Below, piece after piece: positions 131-59,049 of a stretch of DNA of 64,000 nt. Position 1 is the stretch's first letter; the number at the start of each line of letters is the position of its first letter. The notes under the pieces were generated by a model. That model had not been told where the DNA came from. It ran no database searches and saw nothing but the letters and a program-made list of their open reading frames with translations. A program made the translations under genes and the position numbers. The stretch covers positions 62,001 to 126,000 of the forward strand of contig JAFLRR010000004.1 of the NCBI GenBank assembly GCA_022511345.1, in the 5' to 3' direction. This stretch comes from Alistipes sp. (GTDB lineage: Bacteria; Bacteroidota; Bacteroidia; Bacteroidales; Rikenellaceae).

Positions 131-1417
131 TTATTTATGAGTTACATTCCAAGGGAAAGTATAAATAGCGTCGTTTATATTGATATTAATATGCATAACT
201 ATGCCTTTTCGCCGTTGAATATGGATATATCCTGATATTGTTTCTCCGGGATATATTGTTGTCTTTTTTAGATAGCCTTCATCCTTTGCAGCTCTTTCCG
301 ATAATAATGCGTTATCGTACGCAGCTATTCTATTACTTGCTATAATTTGAGCTTGGTATGCAGCGGCTCCATTATAAGTGGTTGTTGTCGATGTTGAGTG
401 ACCATAATATGACGAGTTCCCAGAATAACTTCCATAGGCATATCCGCCACTGCCATATGCCGAAGCACTGCCATAACTAGAGGAGAATCCACTATATGAT
501 GAATTCGTGGTGGAACTTGAGTACCCGGCATTAGATGCTGCCATACCCTCTGCGAATGCATTAAGAGCCATTGCCCAATTTTGTCGTCTACGCACCTTTT
601 TCATATATTCATCTGCAGAAAATACTTTTAGCTCAAATTCTTGTCCATTTGCATCCAATAATGATGCAGTAATCTTTTCTGGTTCAAAGTCGATAGGAAA
701 CATCGAATTGTTTGCTATTATGATTGGTATCTGGAAATACTTTCCATAATCTCGCACTTGATTATTAGTCATACCTATCATTATGCCATTTTTATTATAA
801 TATGGCCATTCTTCTCCATTCTTATACTCAGTTAGTTTTTCATTTAAGGATGGAGATTCATATATGGGCTGTTTGGTGATAAAGTTTATTTTACTACAAA
901 ATCCATCTTTATTAGAAACTATATAATAATTGTGGATTGGCTCTCCATTCCTATATTCAATTTGTATACATATGTCCCCATTTTCAGAGAACTCTGTATA
1001 AACACCTTCTAACTTATCATCTTTAAAATAGGCGTGTAAAGAAATAAGTCCATCTTCCTTATATCTTGTATATTCACCATCTTGCTTGCCATTAGTCCTA
1101 AAACCTTTCTGTTCAATATTTCCAGACTTATAGTAATTGGTGAACTCTCCATCAAATACTGATTTTGAATCATCGTATTTGTCTATGGTAATGTAATATC
1201 CCTCCGATTGTAATTCCCCTGTAATATAATAATCACGGAATGGTTTTCTAAAATTACTATCATTTGATTCCGAGACGATACGATAGTATGTGGCAAATGC
1301 TTTTACCTCGACACCCTTCCAGTCTTTATTATAATACAGAGTGTCAACTCGCATTTGTGCAAAACTAGGAGTCGATGTTATCACCCCCAAAACTAGTAGC
1401 GTAAGATTCTTTCTCAT
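131..1417 (-). CDS. Secreted MORN_2/YwqK-like repeat protein with Ser/Tyr/Gly-rich low-complexity region
   Basis: 428 aa ORF; signal peptide MRKNLTLLVLGVITSTPSFAQ; repeats such as GEFTNYYKSGNIEQKG / GEYTRYKEDGLIS / GVYTEFSENGDI; low GC compared with the rest of the window. Confidence 0.7.
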   Translation of the reverse strand: MRKNLTLLVLGVITSTPSFAQMRVDTLYYNKDWKGVEVKAFATYYRIVSESNDSNFRKPFRDYYITGELQSEGYYITIDKYDDSKSVFDGEFTNYYKSGNIEQKGFRTNGKQDGEYTRYKEDGLISLHAYFKDDKLEGVYTEFSENGDICIQIEYRNGEPIHNYYIVSNKDGFCSKINFITKQPIYESPSLNEKLTEYKNGEEWPYYNKNGIMIGMTNNQVRDYGKYFQIPIIIANNSMFPIDFEPEKITASLLDANGQEFELKVFSADEYMKKVRRRQNWAMALNAFAEGMAASNAGYSSSTTNSSYSGFSSSYGSASAYGSGGYAYGSYSGNSSYYGHSTSTTTTYNGAAAYQAQIIASNRIAAYDNALLSERAAKDEGYLKKTTIYPGETISGYIHIQRRKGIVMHINININDAIYTFPWNVTHK

Positions 1418-3024: not shown

Positions 3025-3127
3025 TTTTACAACCGATGTCTACCGGTTTCGGAGTGCAAATATATAGCAAAAATTGATTCCTGCAAAATTATTGAAGCTT
3101 TTTTTCCAAAAAAAATGTACCTTTACA

Positions 3128-44602: not shown

Positions 44603-44893
44603 CCTTCGCAAGCAGGCGTCACAAGCCTTCGATGGTGCAAATATAGCAATTTTTTTGCTAAACGGAACATCTCTTCGCCGGCTCCCGCCCGCGGCATCCG
44701 CCTCGGCAGCGCACCGCGCTGCCCGTCAACGAAATATTATTGTCGGCAAATGATAAAAAATATCGATTTTTCGGTGCAATTTTGCAAAAACCTCACTATA
44801 TTTGTCCCAAGTTTGCACATGTACGCGCAACGCGCATGAAAGACATGTGTCGAACAGGGTTGTAAATTGAAATTTAAACATTTTTTAATACTT

Positions 44894-46348
44894 ATGAAAA
44901 AGCATCTTTTCTGGCTTGCTGCCCTTGCATTGGGCATGGCAGCATGTACGACCGACCCCAACGGTCCCGAAGGCCCCAAGGGTCCCGAAGACGACAACAC
45001 GACTCCCGTGGCATCCGCCCAGCTCATCGAGCTCAAGGCCGACCAGAGCCGTCTGCTCACTCCGGGCGCCTCTCTTGCTGCCACCTCTGCAGCTGACGCC
45101 GAGAACAACGGCGCATGGCTCGAAGGTCCTAAATACCTCCAGTCTGTCGAAGGCGGCGAGTCGAAGGACGTATCGCACAAATATTCGGCTACAGGTCTGG
45201 CCTTCAACGGCAACACCCTCTACATCAGCTGGCACTCCAACCGCAAGGCCGACCTCGACGAGGATTCCGAGGACCATCAGCACGGCACCAATGTCGACGG
45301 CGACAGCGAGCCTTCGCTCGACTCGGCCGACGACTGGGGCGGCATCGTCGACGTTATAACCATCGACCCGAGCGACATCACCAAGCTCGAGTGCACCAAG
45401 CTCTACCTGCAGCCCGAGCACAAGTACAACCACGTGCTCTATGCCGACAACAACCTCTACCTGGCTTCGACCAGCTGGTTCGTAGGCGCAGCTCTGCACG
45501 TCATCCCCACCACCGCTACGGGTCTGACCACCTCCGAGGCCGAGCGTTTCAGCCTCACCGGCAACTCGGCCAACTGCGCAGTCAAGGTTGGCGACGAGAT
45601 TGTCACCATCTCGGGCCGCACCGAGGGCGGTCTGAACTGGTTCAACCCCGCAACGGCCGACACCGACCAGTCCAAGGCCAGCGTCAATGCCACCACTGCC
45701 AACTTCGGCGGCAAGCACATCTATGTCGACGGCAACAAGGTCTATACCCTTCGCAACCCCCAGGCTCCCGTAATCGAGGTTTACGACGCCGAGAGCAAAT
45801 CGATCGAGACCTTCGCAACCGTCTCGGGCAATGAGGACGACACCGACTTCGGTCTTCTTCCCATCGACGGCAAGAACGTGCTCGCTGGCGACGAGAACTA
45901 CATCTATGCATGCTGCGGCCAGTACGGTCTGCACATCTACGACAAGGCCACGGGCGAGAAGGTTGCCAGCAGCCACAAGAACATCGCCGAGAACAAGAAC
46001 GCAAAGCCCTGGCAGAAGTACTACACCGCCAACGGCGTCGATGTGGACGACAACTATGTCTACGTAGCCAACGGCGCAGGTCTCGTCATTCTCGAGAAGA
46101 ACTTCGACAACCTGAACCAGTACGGCGGTCTGAAGCTCAAGAAGTACGCTCAGTTCACCGGCACCGTCGACTTCACCTTCAACAACCGCTCGGGCAACGA
46201 CAACACCGAGGAGGGTCAGCTCAAAGAGTCGTCGAACTTCGTCAAGCTCTACACCAACGGCGACAAGCACTACGCATTCGTAGCCTACGGCATGTACGGT
46301 CTGCGTATCTACGACCTCTCGGAGCTCTACCCCGCAGTTGAGGAGTAA
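44894..46348 (+). CDS. Lipoprotein, unrecognised beta-propeller-like family (paralogue of 46788-49436)
   Basis: Lipobox LGMAACTTDPNGPEG; HKYSATGLAFNGNTLYISWHSN...HGTNVDGD...DDWGGIVDVITID...EHKYNHVLYADNNLYLASTSWFVGAALHVIP...ANCAVKVGDEIVTISGRTEGGLNWF. Confidence 0.75.
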   Translation: MKKHLFWLAALALGMAACTTDPNGPEGPKGPEDDNTTPVASAQLIELKADQSRLLTPGASLAATSAADAENNGAWLEGPKYLQSVEGGESKDVSHKYSATGLAFNGNTLYISWHSNRKADLDEDSEDHQHGTNVDGDSEPSLDSADDWGGIVDVITIDPSDITKLECTKLYLQPEHKYNHVLYADNNLYLASTSWFVGAALHVIPTTATGLTTSEAERFSLTGNSANCAVKVGDEIVTISGRTEGGLNWFNPATADTDQSKASVNATTANFGGKHIYVDGNKVYTLRNPQAPVIEVYDAESKSIETFATVSGNEDDTDFGLLPIDGKNVLAGDENYIYACCGQYGLHIYDKATGEKVASSHKNIAENKNAKPWQKYYTANGVDVDDNYVYVANGAGLVILEKNFDNLNQYGGLKLKKYAQFTGTVDFTFNNRSGNDNTEEGQLKESSNFVKLYTNGDKHYAFVAYGMYGLRIYDLSELYPAVEE

Positions 46349-46787: not shown

Positions 46788-49436
46788 TTATTTCTTTATC
46801 AGCTCGCTGACCGAATATATTCTCATTCCGTACATGCCGTATGCCACGAACACCTTGTCGCCGCGCACGCGCACGAAGTTCGACGACTCCTTCGCCGTGC
46901 CGTCGGGCATCGTGCCGTCCTTCTCCCAGCCGTTGGGATAGACGAAACCCTTGCCGGTGTAAGCCACGTAGCTTACGGTGTGGTACTCCTTGGTCTTCTC
47001 GTCCTGGCTGTCATTCTTGAATACGGCCAGACCGCCGCCCGTAGCCACATATATGTAGCCCTCATCGTCCACATCGACGCAGTTGGCCGACACTTTGCTC
47101 TTGCCGACCCTCTCGCCCGTCTTCCAGTCGAAGACATGCAGACCGTTGCGGCCGCAGCAGATATACACCTTGCCATCCTTCACGACCATTGCGTTCTTGC
47201 CGTCATAGGGCACCAGCGACACTCCCGTCGACAGTTCGCCGACCTGCACGCCGTTGTAGTTGTATGCAGTCACCGTAGCGTTGGTCGTGTCGTGCAGCGC
47301 ATATACATATGTTCCGTCGTCGTATATGAACTTGCCGCCGTAGCCGGCCGTTTTGCTGTTCTTGTACTTCTTGACCTGGCTCGACTCGTCGTCTACCGCA
47401 AACCAGTTCAGACCGCCCTCGGTGCGGCCCGAGATTGTGGCTATGTACTTGTTGTCGATTATCTCCACGCAGTTGGCCGAGTTGCCCGTCAGGTTCACGC
47501 GGTACGCCTGCTTGGTGTCGAACGTCTGCCCCACGCCCGTGTCGGAGGGCACCAGAGGCACCACATGCAGCGCTGCGCCCACATTCCAGCTGGTCGAAGC
47601 CAAGTAGAGCTTTCCGTCGAAGTACTGCACATGGTTGTACTTGTGCTCGGGGTTCCACACCGTGCCGGCTATGTAGAGGTCGGCTCTGTCGGGGTGGTAG
47701 TTGTTTATCTGCACTATGTCGATTATTCCGCCCCAGTCGTCTGAGCCCTCTACCGACGGGCCGCCATATCCGGCCTCATCCTCGCGGTCGGGGTCCATGT
47801 TGGTTCCGTGGTCGTGCTCGAAGCCGTCCTGCGACTCGCCGCCGGGCAGGTTCGAGTGCCAGCAGATATATACATAGTTTCCGTCGAAAGCCAGACTCGT
47901 CGCCGAATACTTGTGCGCTGCGGGCGGCAGAATCTCGTCCTGCGAGGGCGGCTGCTCGCCCCATGTGTAGTTGGCGCGGCAGTCGTTCTCGTCGTTCGAG
48001 CCTATCTGGAAGTCGCCGTCGAATTTTGTCGGGTCGGCCTTTACGCTAATGCTGTATCCGTAGTCGTCGTTGTCGTTGCGGCCTCTGTCGAACACGGTGT
48101 TGTAGCCCTGGTTTGTGTACGACGACTCGTTCGATGCCCAGCCCACATATATCACCGGCTCGGCCGTCACCAGCTCACCCGTTTCGGTCCGTGTTCTCTT
48201 GCCGAATACGGCCAGCTTGTCGTTTGCGGTCTTGGTTCTGAAATATTTGAACACCTTCTCGCTCTCCGAGGGCTGCACACCGGTAATCGAGCCCTGAATA
48301 TATACGGCCGAGTTGCCCTCAGCCACCACGAAGTGACCGTTTACGAACACGTTCTTTCCGGAATTGTTCTTAACCGCCTGGCCGCCTATTACCAGCACGC
48401 CGTTGTTGAGCCAGTATACACCGTTCGAACCGTTCTGGAACTCCACTCCCTGTGTCAGTTCGAGGAAGTAGTTGACATATATCTCCAGCGCATCCTTGTT
48501 GTTGCCGTGAACTACGAATTTGTGGAGTGTGGCGCACTCGTTGAAGTAGAAGCGGGTCGGATTGTCCGTCTTTCCGTTGTCTATCTCCAGGTCTTCGATT
48601 GTCACCGACGAGTCGAACCGGTACTCGCCGTATCGGGCATAGAGCTGGCCCTTGAACTCCACGGGCTGCGAGAACCATAAGTAGGGATAATTGTTATCGA
48701 CGCTGAAGTTGTTCTCGAAAACGGTCTTTCCGCCGAACCAGTACTCGCCGTATGTGAACTGCACGCTGCCCTTGAATGTCGCGTCGGCGTGAATCTCCAC
48801 ATGCGAGGGTTTGTCGTCGCCGTTTGGCGCATTCTGCCATACGCTCAGGTTCAGCGGCTTGGAGTTGTAGTAGTAGAAGTTCACGTTTCCGGCCGGGATG
48901 TTCACATTCTTCGAGTCCGATATCGAGCCCCAGACATAGTATGTCCAGTGTCTTTTCAGCGTAGCCGACTGGTCCCACGAGTCGCTCAGCTCGACATCCG
49001 TTGCCGACGAGAGTATGTAGAGCGTACCTGCCTCCGAGGCGTTGTTACGGTCGTAGTATGAGATTTTCACGCCCGGCTTGGCCACATAGAGCCTCTTCAG
49101 GTTTCCGGCCTGGAACTCATTTCCTTCGGTAGTCGGTTTTATGACCATGGCCTCGACACCGCCCCAGATTCCGTTCTGGTTATATTCGGGAATATCCGTT
49201 ATATCGGGTTCGGCCTCTATCGCGTGCCCGGTGTCGACGGCCTCTACTGCACGCGTGGCGGCATACGCATCCGTGGCCTGACGCGATATGATTCGCGACT
49301 GGTCGACAGGCAGATGCTTGAGCACCTCTTTCGAGGGCGCAACCTCCGGCTTGCCTTTACCTGGTCCCTCTGCCGGGTCGTTCGTACATGCCGACATCAC
49401 CAGAGCCAGCGCGCCCAACAGCAACAACTTCTTCAT
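46788..49436 (-). CDS. Large lipoprotein: long N-terminal beta-rich region plus C-terminal propeller-like domain paralogous to 44894-46348
   Basis: Lipobox LVMSACTNDPAEGP; HKYSATSLAFDGNYVYICWHSNLPGG...HGTNMDPD...DDWGGIIDIVQIN...EHKYNHVQYFDGKLYLASTSWNVGAALHVVPL...ANCVEIIDNKYIATISGRTEGGLNWF. Confidence 0.78.
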   Translation of the reverse strand: MKKLLLLGALALVMSACTNDPAEGPGKGKPEVAPSKEVLKHLPVDQSRIISRQATDAYAATRAVEAVDTGHAIEAEPDITDIPEYNQNGIWGGVEAMVIKPTTEGNEFQAGNLKRLYVAKPGVKISYYDRNNASEAGTLYILSSATDVELSDSWDQSATLKRHWTYYVWGSISDSKNVNIPAGNVNFYYYNSKPLNLSVWQNAPNGDDKPSHVEIHADATFKGSVQFTYGEYWFGGKTVFENNFSVDNNYPYLWFSQPVEFKGQLYARYGEYRFDSSVTIEDLEIDNGKTDNPTRFYFNECATLHKFVVHGNNKDALEIYVNYFLELTQGVEFQNGSNGVYWLNNGVLVIGGQAVKNNSGKNVFVNGHFVVAEGNSAVYIQGSITGVQPSESEKVFKYFRTKTANDKLAVFGKRTRTETGELVTAEPVIYVGWASNESSYTNQGYNTVFDRGRNDNDDYGYSISVKADPTKFDGDFQIGSNDENDCRANYTWGEQPPSQDEILPPAAHKYSATSLAFDGNYVYICWHSNLPGGESQDGFEHDHGTNMDPDREDEAGYGGPSVEGSDDWGGIIDIVQINNYHPDRADLYIAGTVWNPEHKYNHVQYFDGKLYLASTSWNVGAALHVVPLVPSDTGVGQTFDTKQAYRVNLTGNSANCVEIIDNKYIATISGRTEGGLNWFAVDDESSQVKKYKNSKTAGYGGKFIYDDGTYVYALHDTTNATVTAYNYNGVQVGELSTGVSLVPYDGKNAMVVKDGKVYICCGRNGLHVFDWKTGERVGKSKVSANCVDVDDEGYIYVATGGGLAVFKNDSQDEKTKEYHTVSYVAYTGKGFVYPNGWEKDGTMPDGTAKESSNFVRVRGDKVFVAYGMYGMRIYSVSELIKK

Positions 49437-49467: not shown

Positions 49468-50784
49468 TCACATTTTCACCACGTCTATGCGCCCGTCGCC
49501 GCACGTCTGCTGCGGCAGGCACCCTTTGACGTCGTACACCACCGCACGGCCGGCGCCGTAGCGGCTGAAATCGAAATCCCTGAACTCGTCGTGCGCCACG
49601 CACAGCGCCATCACGTCATAGGCGTGCTCCTTCAGCTCTTCGCAGCGTGTGCAGACCTTCACTCCGTACAGGTTTTCGGCCTGCGAGGCATCTGCCAGCG
49701 GGTCGTATATCTCCACATGCGTGGTGTATCGTGCCAACAGGCGGTATATGTCAATAACGCGCGTATTGCGTATATCGGGACAGTTCTCCTTGAACGTAAA
49801 TCCGAGCAGCAGTATCTTCGCCCCGGCCGGATCCGCATCCGTGTGCGATGCCAGCGACTGGATGATCTGCTCGGTGACATATCCCGGCATCGAGTTGTTT
49901 ATACCGCGAGCCATCGACATCAGACCGGCCGCTATTCCTTTGCGCGAGGCGAACTCTATCAGGTAGTACGGGTCCACGCCTATGCAGTGGCCTCCGACCA
50001 GCCCCGGGCGGAATCCCAGCGCGTTCCACTTGGTGTTCATCGCCTCGAGCACCTCGTTGAAGTCTATACCGAAGGCATTCATTATCTGTGCCACCTCGTT
50101 CATGAAGGCAATGTTCACGTCGCGCTGCGTATTCTCCACTATCTTCGCGGCCTCGGCCACGCGTATGCTTGGCGCCTGCCATGTCATGCCCTCTCCCAGA
50201 ATCGAGGCGTATACCCTGTCGATGAATGCCGCCACTTCGGGCGTCGAGCCCGACGTGACCTTCACCACGTTGTCGGGCGTATGGAGTCTGTCGCCGGGGT
50301 TGATTCTCTCGGGCGAGTATCCGGCGAAGAAGTCCACGTTGTACTTCAGCCCCGAGGCCGCCTCTATCGCCGGCACGCATATCTCCTCCGTGGCTCCGGG
50401 GTACACCGTCGACTCGAATACCACTATGTCTCCCTTCGAGAGTATGCTGCCCACCTCGCGGCTGGCAGCCTTGATATACGACACGTCAGGCCGGAAGTTC
50501 TTGTCCACGGGCGTGGGCACCACTATTACGTAAAAGTTGCACTGGCGCAAATCCTCCAGAGATGAGGTGAACTCGCTGCCGCGCTGCATCATCTCGCCTA
50601 TGTCGTGGCTGTTCACGTCGCCGCAATGGTCGAATTTCTGTTTGAGTTCGGCTATCCGCGACTCCGACAGGTCGAAACCCACGACCTTGTATTTGCGCGA
50701 GAAGAGGCATGCCATTGGGAATCCGGCATAACCCAGGCCTATAAACCCGACCTTCAGATTCGAGATGTCGTTGTTGTTCAGCAT
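49468..50784 (-). CDS. Nucleotide-sugar dehydrogenase (UDP-GlcNAc/GalNAc 6-dehydrogenase-like, TviB/WbpO type)
   Basis: LKVGFIGLGYAGFPMACLFSRKYKVVGFDLSESRI; FESTVYPGATEEICVP; FRPGLVGGHCIGVDPYYL; ORF-track N-terminal extension rejected, start at MLNNNDISNL. Confidence 0.9.
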   Translation of the reverse strand: MLNNNDISNLKVGFIGLGYAGFPMACLFSRKYKVVGFDLSESRIAELKQKFDHCGDVNSHDIGEMMQRGSEFTSSLEDLRQCNFYVIVVPTPVDKNFRPDVSYIKAASREVGSILSKGDIVVFESTVYPGATEEICVPAIEAASGLKYNVDFFAGYSPERINPGDRLHTPDNVVKVTSGSTPEVAAFIDRVYASILGEGMTWQAPSIRVAEAAKIVENTQRDVNIAFMNEVAQIMNAFGIDFNEVLEAMNTKWNALGFRPGLVGGHCIGVDPYYLIEFASRKGIAAGLMSMARGINNSMPGYVTEQIIQSLASHTDADPAGAKILLLGFTFKENCPDIRNTRVIDIYRLLARYTTHVEIYDPLADASQAENLYGVKVCTRCEELKEHAYDVMALCVAHDEFRDFDFSRYGAGRAVVYDVKGCLPQQTCGDGRIDVVKM

Positions 50785-50896
50785 ATTGTATCGGTCACAA
50801 TGTTGAAACAGCATATTTCGGGCCGACAGCGCCGCAAGCGGTCCGCTGACTTTGCAAATGTAATACAAATTTGTTTATTTGTACACTGTGTCATAA

Positions 50897-52300
50897 TTAT
50901 TTTTGCGATATTTTCTCCGAACCTGCACTCTCCTCGGCCTGGGCCCACACCGAAGTCTTTCTCGGGTTCCATTCGTCGCGGAAAGAGTTGAAAAAGAAGA
51001 ACTCCGTCGTATAGCCTATCATTCGCGTCAGACGCAGGAAATAACCCGTGTAGAATGTCGACAGAGGCAGGTATTTGGCCAGCCGCAGCTCCTCGCGCCG
51101 GCGCTCGGTGACCATCATTATCACGCCGAAGGCCACCAGCGAGAAGCAGAACCTCAGCAGCCACCCAACCACCATTATCTCGAGCAGCCGGTCGGTGTAG
51201 GTGAACAGCAGCGAGAGTATGTAGTAGAACCACATGTAGTTGAACACGCAGTCATAGAGTATGCTCTCCATGTTCGACAGCCAGTTCAGCAGCGACCAGT
51301 TGCGGTTCGGCAGCAGTATGTCTTTGTGCTTGCGCACCCTGAATCGCACCAGCGAACGCGCCCATCGCCGCCGCTGGCGGTACAGCCCGAACCATGTCGT
51401 GGGCACGTTGGTCAGGCATATGGCCTCGTTGGCGAACCATATTTTGTAACCCGCCTTGCGTATTTTCTGCGTTATGTCGCCGTCCAGACCGGGTCCTATG
51501 TCCCACATACCCACCTTCATGAGCGTCTCTCGCTCGAAGGCTCCGAATGCGCCCGATATGATGTGGTATATGCCCAGATGATTGACCACCATGCGGCCCA
51601 CCATGATCGTCTTCAGATACTCGAGCGCCTGCAGCGAGGTGCATATCGTCGCATCGGCATTGCGCACCTTGATGCATCCGCCCACGGCCTTTATTCGGCT
51701 GTCCATGTAGAACGGCAGCAGTACCTTTTCGAGAGCGTCGCGGTCGAGCGACGAGTCCGAGTCCAGATGCACCACATACTTTCCCCTGGCATAGCGGGCT
51801 CCCATGTTCGCCGCACCGGCCTTGCCGCCGCGGTCGTTCAGCCGCAGATAGAGGTCTATGAAGCCGTTCTTCTCCATATCGCGGCAAATCAGCGGCGTGG
51901 CGTCGTCCGAGCCGTCGTCGACCACGATTATCTCGTAGTTGCCGTATGTCTGCTCGCGCAGACTCATGGCCAGCTTGTAGATGTTCTTGCCTTCGTTTCG
52001 TCCCGGCACCAAAATCGACACTAACGGATTCTCCGAGAAGAGCACCATCCGCGCCTGCGTCTCCAGGCGGCGGCGCCGGCGCGTGGTGAGCTTGTACCAC
52101 ACCCCGACGATTATCTCCAGCAGGTAGTACCTCGGAAACTCTATCAGAAACAGATACCAGTATATGTGCAGCAGCGTGTTCATGTCGAGGTTGCGCTTGA
52201 AGCACACCTCGATGTCGTAGTAGAGCTCCATCATGTGGTTCGTGAACCACATGATGCCGCTTCCCGCGGCGTTGAGTATCTCCGAAATGGCATCCATCAC
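50897..52300 (-). CDS. Membrane processive glycosyltransferase family 2 (cellulose/hyaluronan/Alg8-like synthase)
   Basis: VSILVPGRNEGKNIYKLAMSLREQTYGNYEIIVVDDGSDD; VHLDSDSSLDRDAL; GDITQKIRKAGY; YRQRRRWARSL (QxxRW); hydrophobic N- and C-terminal segments. Confidence 0.9.
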   Translation of the reverse strand: MMDAISEILNAAGSGIMWFTNHMMELYYDIEVCFKRNLDMNTLLHIYWYLFLIEFPRYYLLEIIVGVWYKLTTRRRRRLETQARMVLFSENPLVSILVPGRNEGKNIYKLAMSLREQTYGNYEIIVVDDGSDDATPLICRDMEKNGFIDLYLRLNDRGGKAGAANMGARYARGKYVVHLDSDSSLDRDALEKVLLPFYMDSRIKAVGGCIKVRNADATICTSLQALEYLKTIMVGRMVVNHLGIYHIISGAFGAFERETLMKVGMWDIGPGLDGDITQKIRKAGYKIWFANEAICLTNVPTTWFGLYRQRRRWARSLVRFRVRKHKDILLPNRNWSLLNWLSNMESILYDCVFNYMWFYYILSLLFTYTDRLLEIMVVGWLLRFCFSLVAFGVIMMVTERRREELRLAKYLPLSTFYTGYFLRLTRMIGYTTEFFFFNSFRDEWNPRKTSVWAQAEESAGSEKISQK

Positions 52301-52321
52301 CTGCGGCTGTCGTCCCGGCCG

Positions 52322-53863
52322 CTATGCCTCGCCGTGCGGCTCTTCATCGCCCTCTGCGGCGGGTTCGCGGTCGTTGTGCTCCTCCTCGATATACTCGGTC
52401 AGCTGGTTTATGAAGACCTCCGAGTCGTCGTCGTGCATGAGTCTGTAAGTCTTTATCCAGCGCACCATCGACACATCCTCCGAGTCGTCCACATAGTCGC
52501 GGTATATCTGGTCGAGCATTCTCTTTATGCGGTCGTGCTCGGCCTCCATACGATCCTTGTGCACCACCACCAGGATATAGAAGTTACTGTTGAGCGTGGT
52601 AATCTTTATCGTGGTGATTCGCGAGAGCAGCGTGCGCATTGCGTCGAACAGCTGCCAGTTCTCGCGGTCGCCGTCGTAGTGGTAGTGGTAGCGGTATACG
52701 AACAGCACGTTGTCCTCATACGAGTGCAGGTTGTTGAACATCTTTATCGACTCGATGAAGTTCTCGAATGTCGAACGTCCCGAGTAGATGTCGTTGCTCT
52801 CGATCTGGAATATTCCGTCGTCGCCGGCAAAGGCCTCTATACCCTTCTGCGTGAGCTTGTACTCCCACACGTCGATTGGCGCCAGCTCGGCTGGTTCCGA
52901 CTCGTTGCCGCAGTTGGCGCAGCGCACCTTCATGGCCGGCGCCAGGAAGGTGTTTCCGCAGTTGACGGCCTTGTTGTTGCGCCCGTAGGTGGTGTTGTTG
53001 CAGGTGAAAACCGTAGCCGGGCGGTCGTAGTCCACGCCTATATGCCGCAATATCCGCTTGCACTTGGGGCAGCACAGCTGGCCGTCATAGGCGTATGTGG
53101 TCTCGGGCGAGATGTTGGCGCAGCGGAAGTGGTGAATCATCGACTCCTGGTGTATGTTCGAGCTGCCGCACTTGGGGCAGCACTCGATAAAGAGCAGATG
53201 GCTGTTTCCGCAGCTGTGACACACGTGCACGCGGTCGATGAACCGCGAGCGCTCGGCGAATCCCAACTCCTCCAATTTGAGTCCGAATTTCATTCGCTCG
53301 TCATACTGCAGCGTCTCCTGGTTGTCGTATCGTGCCAGATACATCGCCGAATAGCCCTCGGCCAGTCCCCGGATGGTGTGCATCGTGAAGTTGAGCCGTC
53401 CGCGCGATATGTCGAAACGCACCATGTTTGCCAGTATGCGCGAGGTGGTCGAGAGGTCGTTTGTCAGCTCGCGGCTGATGTTGTACTTCTCGATGTTGCC
53501 GTAAATCTCCTCTATGTAGTCCGTGAACCGGTCGTCGGTCGGCGAGTCGCAGAATCCGTCGATGAGGTATGCCGCGAAGTGCATGGCCTCCTCCAGGGCC
53601 GTGGTTGCGAACCGCGGCTTGAGGAAACACTTGTCCACACGCGTGGGCGAGAGCCAGCGCAGCAGCACGCGGTTCTCCTCGTAGTTGTGGTGCACGATGT
53701 TGACGTATATGGCGTCGAAGCTGTCGCTGTCCAACGCGTCGATATTCTCTATCTGCATCGCCTTGTTGACGATCAGAATGCGGCGTCCGCGCGAATTGGT
53801 CACGAAAGTATAGCGGCTGCTCTTGCTCTCCGCATTCTGCGCGCTGTACATTAAATTATCCAT
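52322..53863 (-). CDS. Multi-zinc-ribbon cytoplasmic protein, possibly TackOD1-type, in exopolysaccharide operon
   Basis: CHSCGNSHLLFIECCPKCGSSNIHQESMIHHFRC ... CCPKCKRILRHIGVDYDRPATVFTCNN...NCGNTFLAPAMKVRCANCGNES; no TM segments apparent; start at MDNLMYSAQNAES. Confidence 0.65.
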   Translation of the reverse strand: MDNLMYSAQNAESKSSRYTFVTNSRGRRILIVNKAMQIENIDALDSDSFDAIYVNIVHHNYEENRVLLRWLSPTRVDKCFLKPRFATTALEEAMHFAAYLIDGFCDSPTDDRFTDYIEEIYGNIEKYNISRELTNDLSTTSRILANMVRFDISRGRLNFTMHTIRGLAEGYSAMYLARYDNQETLQYDERMKFGLKLEELGFAERSRFIDRVHVCHSCGNSHLLFIECCPKCGSSNIHQESMIHHFRCANISPETTYAYDGQLCCPKCKRILRHIGVDYDRPATVFTCNNTTYGRNNKAVNCGNTFLAPAMKVRCANCGNESEPAELAPIDVWEYKLTQKGIEAFAGDDGIFQIESNDIYSGRSTFENFIESIKMFNNLHSYEDNVLFVYRYHYHYDGDRENWQLFDAMRTLLSRITTIKITTLNSNFYILVVVHKDRMEAEHDRIKRMLDQIYRDYVDDSEDVSMVRWIKTYRLMHDDDSEVFINQLTEYIEEEHNDREPAAEGDEEPHGEA

Positions 53864-53900
53864 AATCTGCTGCCTCTGCTGTTTGACAATGGGTTGCGCC

Positions 53901-55433
53901 CTATTTCCGCTGCGCCCCGGCCGCCGGGACAAGTATCACGGCATCGGCATAGAGCACCTTGTCCACACCGGGATTCAACGCCACGATATCCTCGATCCTG
54001 ACTCCGTAGGTGCGCGCTATGCCGTACAACGTCTCGCCACTCTTCACCTTGTGGCGCACATAGTCTTTAGTCCCGGCATCCGAGCTCACGCTTCCGCCGG
54101 CCGCGCTATTTTCCGCCCGGCTCCTTTCGGCCGCGCTCTGCGAAGGCTTCGCAGCCTCCCCGGCCTGCTTCTGCGGCAGCGTGTCGCCTGCATCGGCATC
54201 TTCATCATCGCCCTCCGACTCCTCGGGACGGTAGTGGTATCTGTCCGAAGCGTTCTTCTGGCGCATCATGCCCAGGTGATACTTCGACTCCTCGGTCAGG
54301 CCGTCGCGCGTGATGTACCAGTAGTCCGAGCCGTCGTCGCGGCGGCCGTTGTCGTAGTTCTTTATGCGCACCTTCACCGGCACCTTGTCCACCGCCGCCC
54401 ACAGCGGCAGCACCTGGTCTCTGTCGGGCGAGAATACCACCATCACGCTGGTGTAGTTGTGCGAGAGGCTGTTGCGCAGCTCCTCGGGCAGCTCCTCGGT
54501 GCGGGCGCCGAGCAGTTCGACCGTCGCACGGAATCTCACATCGTCGTTGACTATCACCTCGGCCTGGGTGTTGTTGTTCACGCGGCCCATGTAGTATGTG
54601 GGCACGTATGCCACCACCTGCATGTTGCTGCGCTCCAGGCTGACATTCTCCAGCTGCAGCACATGCTCCTCCTTGAACACGCGCGAGAACGGCGTGGCCC
54701 ACAGCTTGGTCACCACGGCCGTGTCCTGCGCAATCTCGTAGCGTATTGCCGACGAGTTGCGCTCGTAGATCTGGCGCAGCACGTAGTCCAGGCCGCCCTG
54801 GTCGTTGGCGAACTCGAGGCTGTACTGGCCGAACTTGTGCACTGCCGACTGGCTTTCGCGGTGTATGCTTCCGTATATTCCGGCCTTCTTGAGGGTGGCG
54901 TTCAGCTGCTCGCGCGTCTCGGCCAGCTGTCTGAGCAGGTCCATCTTGTGCGAGTTCTCGGTCATTCCGAAGCGTATGTTGTTGTCCTCCTTGGCGATTT
55001 GGCTCTCCAGCTCGCGGATTTTGACCCTCAGCACCTCGGCTTCGGCATATGCCATGTTGAGCTGCACTCGGGCGTTGCGGTCGTTGACTATCACGCCGGG
55101 CTCGGAGCTCATGCTTCCCAAACCGAACAGGTTGATGTAGACGAACGAGTAGAGCGTATCGCCGGGGATGACTATGTCGCCCACCTCCGTATACTGGTCG
55201 AAGATATACATATCCTCCACCGCGCGGTAGTCCTTGTACTCGGTCTGAATGTAGCCGTCGAACTCCGTGTAGACCACCTTGCGGAATATGTAGAAACCCA
55301 GCAGAAGCAGCACGACAACCAACACTATCGTGAAGATAATCTGCTGCTTGGCCAGAGCCCTGTTTCGTTCGGTTATTATCCGTTCGATGTTCCGGTTCTC
55401 GTCGTAGTCCGATTTGAAGCTGAATGACTGCAT
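53901..55433 (-). CDS. HlyD-like membrane fusion protein with C-terminal LysM domain
   Basis: N-terminal TM QQIIFTIVLVVVLLLLGFYIF, coiled-coil AEAEVLRVKIRELESQIAKEDNN...LLRQLAETREQLNATL, C-terminal VRHKVKSGETLYGIARTYGVRIEDIVALNPGVDKVLYADAVILVP (LysM). Confidence 0.85.
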   Translation of the reverse strand: MQSFSFKSDYDENRNIERIITERNRALAKQQIIFTIVLVVVLLLLGFYIFRKVVYTEFDGYIQTEYKDYRAVEDMYIFDQYTEVGDIVIPGDTLYSFVYINLFGLGSMSSEPGVIVNDRNARVQLNMAYAEAEVLRVKIRELESQIAKEDNNIRFGMTENSHKMDLLRQLAETREQLNATLKKAGIYGSIHRESQSAVHKFGQYSLEFANDQGGLDYVLRQIYERNSSAIRYEIAQDTAVVTKLWATPFSRVFKEEHVLQLENVSLERSNMQVVAYVPTYYMGRVNNNTQAEVIVNDDVRFRATVELLGARTEELPEELRNSLSHNYTSVMVVFSPDRDQVLPLWAAVDKVPVKVRIKNYDNGRRDDGSDYWYITRDGLTEESKYHLGMMRQKNASDRYHYRPEESEGDDEDADAGDTLPQKQAGEAAKPSQSAAERSRAENSAAGGSVSSDAGTKDYVRHKVKSGETLYGIARTYGVRIEDIVALNPGVDKVLYADAVILVPAAGAQRK

Positions 55434-55500
55434 ATCACATTCAATCCGTTGTCCCCTTGCGCGCGCCCTCCGGTGCCGGTACCGCAGACGCGCCTGCGGT

Positions 55501-56904
55501 TCATTTCATCTCCTGAATTATCAAGTATCGGCTCACGGGCTCGTCGGAGAGATAGCTCTGCAGCTCTATCAGCTGACAGTCGCGCTGATAGGCATATGTC
55601 AGCATCCTCTCCCACGCCTGCAGGTATACGTTGTACTCCTGCAGCCGGTCGATGCGCGAATATTCGCCCGCCACGTTCCGGTAGCCCTCCTTGCGCATGG
55701 CTATGTAGCTCTTCAGGCTGACCATGCGCTCGTATTCGCCGTAAATATTTTCGTTATAGTTCTCTATGTCGCGCAGCAGAGCCGTCACCTCGCGCTCTAT
55801 CTGCTCGCAGGTGCGCTGCTGCTCGATTCGCACCACGCTCTGCTCGGCGCGTATCGCGCGGCGCTTGCGGGCCGTCTCGGCCGATATCGGTATCTTGAAC
55901 GACAGACCCACGTCTATATTGTGCGTGTTGTGCACATTCGGGCGGTTGTAGTACGACACGCGGGCGAATGGCAGGATGTCCATCGTCTGCAGATAGTCGG
56001 TCTTTTTGCGCTGCACGCCAAGCAGTTCCTCGCGCATGGCCAGCTTGCGCACATCGCGGTGCTCCTCGCGGATGTACTGCATGAGCGAAGCCGTGTCGGC
56101 CACCTTGATGTAGGCTATTCCGACATTTGCCGGCAGGGGCGTCACGATCGAATCGGATTTGATGGCTATCAGCTGGCGCTCGACTTCGGCCTGTTCGTTG
56201 ATAACCTTCAGCAGGTCGTCGCTCGAAATCTTGCCGTTGCGCAACAGGTATATCTGCGTCTGCATGAGCAGGCGCAGATTCTCGGCATGCACTCCCAGAA
56301 CCGTCAGCAGACGGCCGTAATAGCGGTAGCGCACCGACCTCTTCTGGCGGAATATGGTTTCGGCCAGAGCGTCGCGCTCGTACTCCAGCTGGCGCAGTTC
56401 GCCCTCGAGCTGCAGCTCGCGAATCTTGGTGGCGCGCTTGTAGAGCGAACTGTGGAATATGTTCCACTCCAGCTCGGCCTGCAGCTTGGCGTTGTATGCC
56501 ACAAGCGGGTCGTCGGGGTCGTAGCTTATCTGATTGCCGGGGCGCACATAGGCCTGGCCGCGGATGTCGAGACCGGTGCGGGCCTTCATCTCGCGAATCT
56601 GCGCATCGACAGCCTCGTCTATGGCCTCGACGCGCTCTTTGACTATGAAATCTATCTCGGCATAGTCCAGCGCCACCGAGGCCAGCGTGTCGGCCGGCAT
56701 GCGGAATACCAGCGAGTCCATCACCTCGAAGCGGCTGTCGTAGCGCTCCAGAATGCGGTTCGTCTCATCCTGACTGTCGAAATCGACGCTCCCGCGCCCC
56801 GGCTGCAGCTCTGTCGAGCCGGTGCGAGCGAGCTGCTGCGCAGCAGCTCCGAACCACATGGTCGCGGACAGCATGGCGAGCATGATATGTAAGCGGCGCG
56901 GCAT
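55501..56904 (-). CDS. TolC-like outer-membrane channel protein
   Basis: Signal peptide; long helical heptad-rich repeats (ATKIRELQLEGELRQLEYERDALAETIFRQKRSVRYRYYGRLLTVLGVHAENLRLLMQTQIYLL), NRPNVHNTHNIDVGLSFKIPISAETARKRRAIRAEQ; adjacent to the HlyD-like gene. Confidence 0.75.
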   Translation of the reverse strand: MPRRLHIMLAMLSATMWFGAAAQQLARTGSTELQPGRGSVDFDSQDETNRILERYDSRFEVMDSLVFRMPADTLASVALDYAEIDFIVKERVEAIDEAVDAQIREMKARTGLDIRGQAYVRPGNQISYDPDDPLVAYNAKLQAELEWNIFHSSLYKRATKIRELQLEGELRQLEYERDALAETIFRQKRSVRYRYYGRLLTVLGVHAENLRLLMQTQIYLLRNGKISSDDLLKVINEQAEVERQLIAIKSDSIVTPLPANVGIAYIKVADTASLMQYIREEHRDVRKLAMREELLGVQRKKTDYLQTMDILPFARVSYYNRPNVHNTHNIDVGLSFKIPISAETARKRRAIRAEQSVVRIEQQRTCEQIEREVTALLRDIENYNENIYGEYERMVSLKSYIAMRKEGYRNVAGEYSRIDRLQEYNVYLQAWERMLTYAYQRDCQLIELQSYLSDEPVSRYLIIQEMK

Positions 56905-56922
56905 TACTATCTGAATTAGCTA

Positions 56923-56953
56923 CAAACGTAGTCATTATTTTCGATAGTACAAA
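56923..56953 (-). promoter_or_regulatory. Bacteroidetes-type promoter of the exopolysaccharide operon (-33 TTTG / -7 TACGTTTG)
   Basis: Minus strand TTTG-[19 nt]-TACGTTTG, spacing matches the Bacteroides consensus TTTG-N19-TAnnTTTG. Confidence 0.75.
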
Positions 56954-58934: not shown

Positions 58935-59049
58935 CACTCCGCAACTGCAGCCGATTCGGCAGATATTTGCGGCAGGAGCGAAAATTTCGGCTGTAGATTT
59001 TGCGGGAAAAGAAAAAAGATTTATCTTTGCACTCGCTTTTCATAAGCAT

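Follow-up and report, generated by a model that had tools for sequence, protein, structure and literature searches.

A 64,000-nucleotide stretch of Alistipes sp. DNA (the window; GenBank assembly GCA_022511345.1, contig JAFLRR010000004.1, positions 62,001 to 126,000) carries on its minus strand an operon for an outer-membrane channel, a periplasmic adaptor, a cysteine-rich zinc-ribbon protein, a membrane glycosyltransferase of family 2 (GT2) and a nucleotide-sugar dehydrogenase. The zinc-ribbon protein belongs to the TackOD1 family. We consider it likely that the operon encodes a synthase-dependent exopolysaccharide machine similar to Mxd of Shewanella, in which the TackOD1 protein serves as a cytoplasmic control subunit of the GT2 that is independent of cyclic di-GMP (c-di-GMP). 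The system is real and widespread, it is not ordinary capsule biosynthesis and, by the tests that we ran, it is not the alginate, cellulose or poly-N-acetylglucosamine (PNAG) system.

A TackOD1 protein is encoded between the adaptor and the synthase

A preliminary description of this DNA had reported five co-directional genes with short gaps, and all five open reading frames were confirmed on the minus strand at window positions 49468-56904. They are listed in the order of transcription, each followed by the domains found in its product.

55501-56904, minus strand: TolC-like outer-membrane channel, 467 aa (PF02321, E 2.9e-6; signal peptide seen by eye)
53901-55433, minus strand: HlyD/membrane-fusion-type periplasmic adaptor, 510 aa, with one N-terminal transmembrane segment (residues 32-50)
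53925-54053, minus strand: LysM domain at the C-terminus of the adaptor, residues 461-503 (PF01476, 40.6 bits, E 2.4e-10)
52322-53863, minus strand: Cys-rich protein, putative TackOD1 zinc-ribbon regulator, 513 aa (PF18551; AlphaFold2 model)
53486-53818, minus strand: N-terminal receiver-like (pseudo-REC) domain, residues 16-126 (position relative to REC of relatives, alignment, model of the isolated domain)
52853-53293, minus strand: TackOD1 zinc core, residues 191-337 (PF18551 match; CxxC, CxxC, HHxxC, CxxC and further Cys ligands)
52436-52768, minus strand: C-terminal GGDEF-like domain, residues 366-476 (fold in the model; catalytic and I-site motifs lost)
50897-52297, minus strand: membrane GT2 synthase, 466 aa (PF00535, E 2.5e-26, and PF13641; DDGSDD, DSDSS, DGD and QRRRW motifs)
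49468-50784, minus strand: TviB/WbpO-type UDP-N-acetylhexosamine (UDP-HexNAc) 6-dehydrogenase (three UDPG_MGDP_dh domains; GGHCIGVDPYYL motif present)

Counted from the likely ATG starts, the gaps between the genes are 67, 37, 24 and 112 bp; the starts of the Cys-rich gene (ATG 53863) and the dehydrogenase gene (ATG 50784) are likely ATGs of our choice.

The Cys-rich protein, which the preliminary description had called a zinc-ribbon protein, scored 132.7 bits (E 1.5e-38) against PF18551 (TackOD1), for which the Pfam gathering cut-off is 32. It has the family pattern of about 11 conserved cysteines in CxxC and HxxC motifs: C215, C218, C229, C232, H244, C248, C265, C268, C288, C302 and C315 are invariant in all 88 aligned members, and C318 is kept in 76 of them. 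AlphaFold2 gave a confident three-part model (mean predicted local distance difference test, pLDDT, 86; predicted template modelling score 0.79), in which the zinc core is preceded by an alpha/beta domain and followed by a C-terminal domain of the order beta-alpha-beta-beta-alpha-beta. TackOD1 (Thaumarchaeal output domain 1) was described in 2018 as a response-regulator output domain with CxxC and HxxC ligands in archaea and some bacteria, and its function was called 'obscure' (PMC5847659). The archaeal members have the same ligands in a REC-TackOD1 architecture, but they were reported in type IV pilus loci and not beside GT2 synthases, whereas in the window the TackOD1 gene lies between those of the adaptor and the synthase, and its product ends in a GGDEF-like domain. 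The earlier suggestion that control may run through the zinc-ribbon protein is supported as probable, since the protein belongs to a regulator family; what has been added is its name and its receiver/TackOD1/GGDEF-type architecture.

The gene order recurs among relatives

A profile-based scan of GTDB representatives gave 450 related stretches, and gene order was counted in the best 80 of these, in 78 of which a TackOD1 gene was called. The HlyD gene lies directly before the TackOD1 gene in 72 of the 78 loci and a synthase-type GT2 gene directly after it in 69, while a TolC gene precedes the HlyD gene, two genes before TackOD1, in 66. A dehydrogenase gene is found within about 7 kb in 46/78. 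Dozens of loci repeat the order TolC-HlyD-TackOD1-GT2, so that the association of these genes is not due to chance. Neighbourhood conservation had been proposed as one check on the preliminary description, and its outcome was favourable: in the loci counted, the TolC and HlyD genes travel with the GT2 gene (66-72 of 78), not without it. When 20 loci were read out (L048-L067), the GT2 gene directly adjoined the TackOD1 gene in every one.

Among the best 80 of the 450 stretches, the closest relative is an Alistipes metagenome-assembled genome (66% identity), followed by Muribaculaceae and Prevotellaceae metagenome-assembled genomes and Segatella albensis (52-56%); strains of Paraprevotella, Barnesiella and Hallella are more distant. 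TackOD1 scored over the cut-off in 4 of 61 genomes sampled from the family, 8 of 296 from the order and 11 of 300 from the phylum, the window's own genome included, and in none of five congeners. These low counts and the lack of the cassette in the congeners indicate a patchy distribution. Weak matches of the genome search (E about 1e-4; loci L068-L073) had no GT2, HlyD or TolC neighbours of the operon's type and were therefore taken as other zinc-ribbon proteins. A single-sequence genome scan for relatives and a scan of viral contigs gave no matches, and our literature searches found no Bacteroidota version of the system.

Receiver-like and GGDEF-like domains flank the zinc core

We use the names 'receiver-like' and 'GGDEF-like' because of the position of these domains in a homologous architecture and because of their fold, not because of their sequence. 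At the position of the N-terminal domain, 6 of 20 relatives have a true REC domain (PF00072, best E 3.7e-25), and alignment showed an intact receiver with the phospho-Asp in six Balneolaceae relatives. In the window protein the phospho-Asp position is occupied by Asn55 and PF00072 gave no match, so that neither mark of a response regulator is present. The model of the isolated N-terminal domain has a pLDDT of 92, and many CheY/REC structures are among its weak Foldseek matches (best E 0.1).

For the C-terminal domain, DgcZ, SiaD, DgcR and PelD are among the weak Foldseek matches of the model, the best of these with E 0.07. The homologous region scores as GGDEF (PF00990) over the cut-off in Plesiomonas (41.6 bits) and Aeromonas (35 bits), where the catalytic motif is lost. 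RDTD, a form of the I-site RxxD, is present in four of four Gammaproteobacterial sequences of the family alignment; the window protein has Thr and Lys there, and neither the Arg nor the Asp of the I-site is kept in it or in the aligned relatives from gut Bacteroidales. Judged by motif alone, the GGDEF-derived I-site of a c-di-GMP-binding regulator is thus absent from the window protein; of the features of a PelD/BcsE-type degenerate GGDEF domain, it has a compatible fold and lacks the RxxD. The preliminary description had seen no GGDEF domain in these genes, which holds at the level of profiles, but the C-terminal domain probably represents a relic of GGDEF.

Profiles of the window-clade C-terminus and of the Balneolaceae domains, compared directly, gave no significant match, while a profile of a mixed set that included environmental Bacteroidales did link to the Balneolaceae (92%). 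The homology of the window domains to those of the relatives is therefore transitive at best.

Relatives in other phyla and the regulatory inventory of the hosts

Balneolaceae genomes carry the TackOD1-GT2 pair plus an adaptor (L057-L067, L150). A trio of TackOD1 protein, GT2 and HlyD is found on plasmids of Plesiomonas, Photobacterium (two copies), Phyllobacterium, Aminobacter, Rhodobacteraceae M382, Palleronia, Roseibium and Methylocystis, although in some of these the adaptor is annotated as hypothetical or matches weakly. The regulator-GT2-HlyD trio thus extends over Balneolaceae, Alphaproteobacteria and Gammaproteobacteria. The window and Plesiomonas GT2 proteins, aligned over 381 aa, have a common ISGAFGAF/QRxRW core; the window and Photobacterium adaptors matched weakly, with only E 0.01 in one comparison.

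The Palleronia and Roseibium TackOD1 members are annotated as response regulators and are adjoined by Hpt proteins and histidine kinases. Histidine kinases on the same strand lie within the stretch covered in 33 of 99 loci; the background for this count is the window genome only, which has three HisKA matches in 1.95 Mb. PilZ and GGDEF domains over the cut-off were found in none of 20 sampled Bacteroidota hosts, and control genomes gave matches; the sole weak GGDEF match in these hosts is itself the C-terminal domain of a TackOD1 protein. Control of the GT2 through PilZ, as in BcsA or Alg44, or through GGDEF enzymes was rejected, since neither domain was found over the cut-off in the cluster or in the 20 host genomes.

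Several relatives showed further features. Small proteins of 109-123 aa are encoded between the adaptor and TackOD1 genes in three Balneolaceae loci (L058 9947-10276, L064 10646-11005, L066 10384-10755); the one in L066 is a stand-alone receiver domain, and the other two have no Pfam match. On the 300-kb plasmid p1 of Plesiomonas shigelloides, the TackOD1-GGDEF-like/GT2/HlyD operon (L154 8536-12236) lies beside genes for N-acetylmannosamine catabolism. Aeromonas caviae carries a TackOD1-GGDEF-like gene (L157 8623-10005) on the 29-kb mobilizable plasmid pKAM345_3, with no GT2 or HlyD gene annotated near it in the stretch read.

The synthase and the sugar dehydrogenase

The GT2 is of the synthase type, as the preliminary description had it. 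It has the D, D, D, QxxRW motifs of processive enzymes, including the QRRRW, and hydropathy of the window protein and of the family mean predicts transmembrane segments at residues 49-67, 346-364 and 379-397, which flank the catalytic domain; this topology, too, was a condition set by the preliminary description. The protein is less hydrophobic than PgaC, so that its exact topology is tentative. In an alignment of 16 relatives, 86 columns are invariant.

The dehydrogenase gave its best score of all NCBIfam subfamilies with TviB (NF011729, 425 bits; 352 bits with TIGR03026), and so was rightly called TviB-like. The 1.95-Mb genome encodes three distinct nucleotide-sugar dehydrogenases, TuaD-like (C19:48213), WecC-like (C7:13619) and the operon's own TviB-like enzyme (C16, the window), of which the first two score 60 and 129 bits with the TviB model. 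The best score with TviB and the separate TuaD-like and WecC-like paralogues favour UDP-GlcNAc or UDP-GalNAc as the substrate and an aminouronate in the polymer. Sequence thus points to a polymer that probably contains a HexNAc-uronate, and its chemistry would be uronic or aminouronic. Supply of an aminouronate is not universal in the family, because some loci have no dehydrogenase gene.

Identity with the PNAG and Vi-antigen enzymes was rejected. PgaC/IcaA, the PNAG synthase (TIGR03937), is the best NCBIfam neighbour of the GT2, but the score of 163 bits is below the equivalog cut-off of 422; likewise, the 425 bits of the dehydrogenase with TviB of the Vi antigen fall short of the 592-bit equivalog cut-off. 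The cluster also lacks PgaA, PgaB and PgaD as well as genes for Vi export.

The export components

A dedicated periplasmic bridge and an outer-membrane channel are encoded in the same operon as the synthase. The HlyD_3 match of the adaptor is below the cut-off (E 0.014), so that its assignment leans on position, the single transmembrane segment and conservation. Pfam found no ABC, RND or MFS inner-membrane pump among the cluster proteins. Anchoring to peptidoglycan through LysM, which the preliminary description had considered possible, was rejected as a core feature: LysM occurs in only 5 of 91 other adaptors and has been added among the close relatives of the window.

Promoter and lipoprotein genes at the operon's borders

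The following features lie at the two ends of the operon.

56923-56953, minus strand: promoter matching the Bacteroidetes consensus TTTG-N19-TAnnTTTG, just 5' of the TolC-like gene (pattern scan)
46788-49436, minus strand: sixth operon gene, 882-aa lipoprotein with an LVIVD/DUF5074-like C-terminal half (lipobox VMSAC seen by eye)
44867-46348, plus strand: paralogous 493-aa lipoprotein, 41% identical over 452 aa to the 882-aa protein

The promoter is a perfect match, TTTG-N19-TACGTTTG, at 56953-56923, and its first base, 56953, is the coordinate at which the preliminary description had ended the region. The pattern scan found five full matches on both strands of the window, compared with 0.2 per shuffle; the other four lie at 58999-59029 (plus strand) and at 3057-3087, 2803-2833 and 1360-1391 (minus strand).

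At the 3' side, the extent of five genes proved too short. The gene of the 882-aa lipoprotein, which had been missed, begins 31 bp 3' of the dehydrogenase gene in the same direction. Of 99 relative loci, 50 contain a member of its family, often immediately beside the dehydrogenase (UGD), GT2 or TolC gene, and relatives of the protein touch PF16819/PF08309. The two LVIVD/Kelch-like lipoprotein paralogues (44867-46348, plus strand; 46788-49436, minus strand) converge, only the second being co-directional with the operon, and it is uncertain whether the 493-aa protein belongs to the system.

Comparison with known systems

The preliminary description had drawn on alginate and cellulose as the nearest described systems; the operon more closely resembles Mxd of Shewanella. 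Published work on Shewanella describes MxdA as a degenerated GGDEF domain protein that binds c-di-GMP and the receiver CheY3, MxdB as a GT2 and MxdC as resembling an efflux component (PMC7666153, PMC11395469, PMC3409153, PMC3691769), and mxd mutants, including mxdB, fail to build a three-dimensional biofilm (PMC3691769). MxdABCD of S. oneidensis thus combines a degenerate-GGDEF regulator, a membrane GT2 and an efflux-type MxdC for a putative exopolysaccharide of the three-dimensional biofilm, and the Gammaproteobacterial TackOD1-GGDEF-like/GT2/HlyD operons have the same layout. The window shares with them a regulator gene that adjoins the GT2 gene, together with a HlyD-type adaptor. From the likeness of the operons and the published descriptions, rather than from sequence, we infer that MxdA is a TackOD1 protein. 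Unlike MxdABCD, the window operon encodes a TolC of its own, a sugar dehydrogenase and a lipoprotein, and its adaptor bears a LysM domain; the regulator itself includes the receiver-like domain, the c-di-GMP I-site is absent and no GGDEF enzymes were found in the host.

BcsE of E. coli (degenerate REC-GGDEF) and PelD of Pseudomonas (GAF-GGDEF) are likewise cytoplasmic control subunits of synthase-dependent exopolysaccharide systems with a degenerate GGDEF domain, to which BcsE adds a degenerate receiver; the window protein differs from them in the zinc-ribbon core between the two domains and in the absence of the RxxD I-site. On the export side, a GT2 synthase, a HlyD-like adaptor and TolC were proposed to form a tripartite exopolysaccharide exporter, XcsAB-TolC, in cyanobacteria (as cited from Maeda 2018 in PMC12430437). 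The parts are alike, but XcsA is a cellulose synthase with PilZ, the genes are scattered in T. vulcanus, and TackOD1 and the dehydrogenase are absent from that system.

A model for the operon and its alternatives

The genes suggest a self-contained system of synthesis and export, as had been proposed. The GT2 in the inner membrane would polymerise and extrude a polysaccharide, the HlyD-type adaptor would span the periplasm and the TolC-type protein would open the outer membrane; the TviB-like dehydrogenase would supply the UDP-HexNAc-uronate, and the lipoprotein, at the surface, would probably hold the polymer or organise it. The TackOD1 protein would gate the GT2, with the zinc-ribbon core as a conserved output or docking module, the N-terminal receiver-like domain as the input and a C-terminal domain that appears to derive from GGDEF, whose I-site motif is kept in Gammaproteobacterial relatives and not here. 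In hosts that are apparently free of c-di-GMP, signals of the receiver/kinase type or from other proteins may switch the synthase. The Bacteroidota appear to be without the c-di-GMP input, and some members of the family may have a receiver/kinase-type input, either fused or encoded next door. We infer the contact with the GT2, the direction of control, the control signal, the chemistry of the polymer and the role of the lipoprotein from these comparisons.

Several results weigh against such a regulatory role in the window. The Asn at the phosphorylation site rules the protein out as a classical response regulator, and its gene has no neighbouring kinase. The window-clade profile reached only 2% against REC and 0.1% against E. 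coli GGDEF, neither of which is significant, and Foldseek searches with the full and N-terminal models gave E values of 0.005 or worse, with nothing below 0.001. The protein could instead be a constitutive zinc-stabilised scaffold or assembly factor, a partner for the GT2 or for membrane targeting, whose degenerate domains are kept only as protein-protein surfaces. In the window protein the motifs for catalysis and ligand binding are gone from both regulatory domains, no kinase lies beside the operon, the whole genome has only three HisKA matches, and the degenerate REC-GGDEF tandem of BcsE is a precedent for service in assembly (PMC7439463). We regard a pure scaffold as somewhat unlikely, because relatives with an intact REC, with Hpt proteins and kinases next door or with the I-site RDTD point to signalling.

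The GGDEF-like fold in the model and the I-site motif of the Gammaproteobacterial relatives would also fit a nucleotide second messenger that is still in use, either c-di-GMP from an unrecognised enzyme or by uptake, or another cyclic nucleotide bound by a remodelled C-terminal domain. This seems improbable to us: all 20 hosts lack GGDEF over the cut-off as well as PilZ, and the Arg and Asp of the I-site are gone in the window and the gut Bacteroidales relatives aligned. Hardly more probable is non-polymeric export, in which the GT2 would make a glycolipid or short oligosaccharide and TolC and HlyD would be an ordinary efflux pump that merely adjoins it. The HlyD_3 and TolC families are mostly components of efflux or type I secretion, and the adaptor match is weak, but an inner-membrane pump is lacking in the cluster, the adaptor and channel genes accompany the GT2 gene in most loci, the GT2 has the processive-type QxxRW with predicted transmembrane segments around its catalytic domain, and Shewanella mxdB mutants lose biofilm structure (PMC3691769). 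A polymer-exporting synthase under control of the TackOD1 protein accounts best for these data. Whether TackOD1 is a general synthase-control module that gates GT2 enzymes across phyla, with receiver/kinase or pseudo-receiver input in place of c-di-GMP in the Bacteroidota, we put forward tentatively, as slightly short of an even chance.

Discussion of the surface glycans of gut Bacteroidales usually centres on Wzx/Wzy-type capsules. The operon described here is a conserved synthase-dependent one, present, among others, in named strains of Segatella, Paraprevotella, Barnesiella and Hallella, and may shape biofilm formation and contact with the host. For TackOD1, obscure in function in 2018, it provides a concrete hypothesis, the control of a GT2 synthase, and it offers a natural experiment in synthase control in hosts that seem to lack the c-di-GMP machinery. 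If this reading is true, gut Bacteroidales would own a widespread synthase-dependent polysaccharide system that is independent of c-di-GMP.

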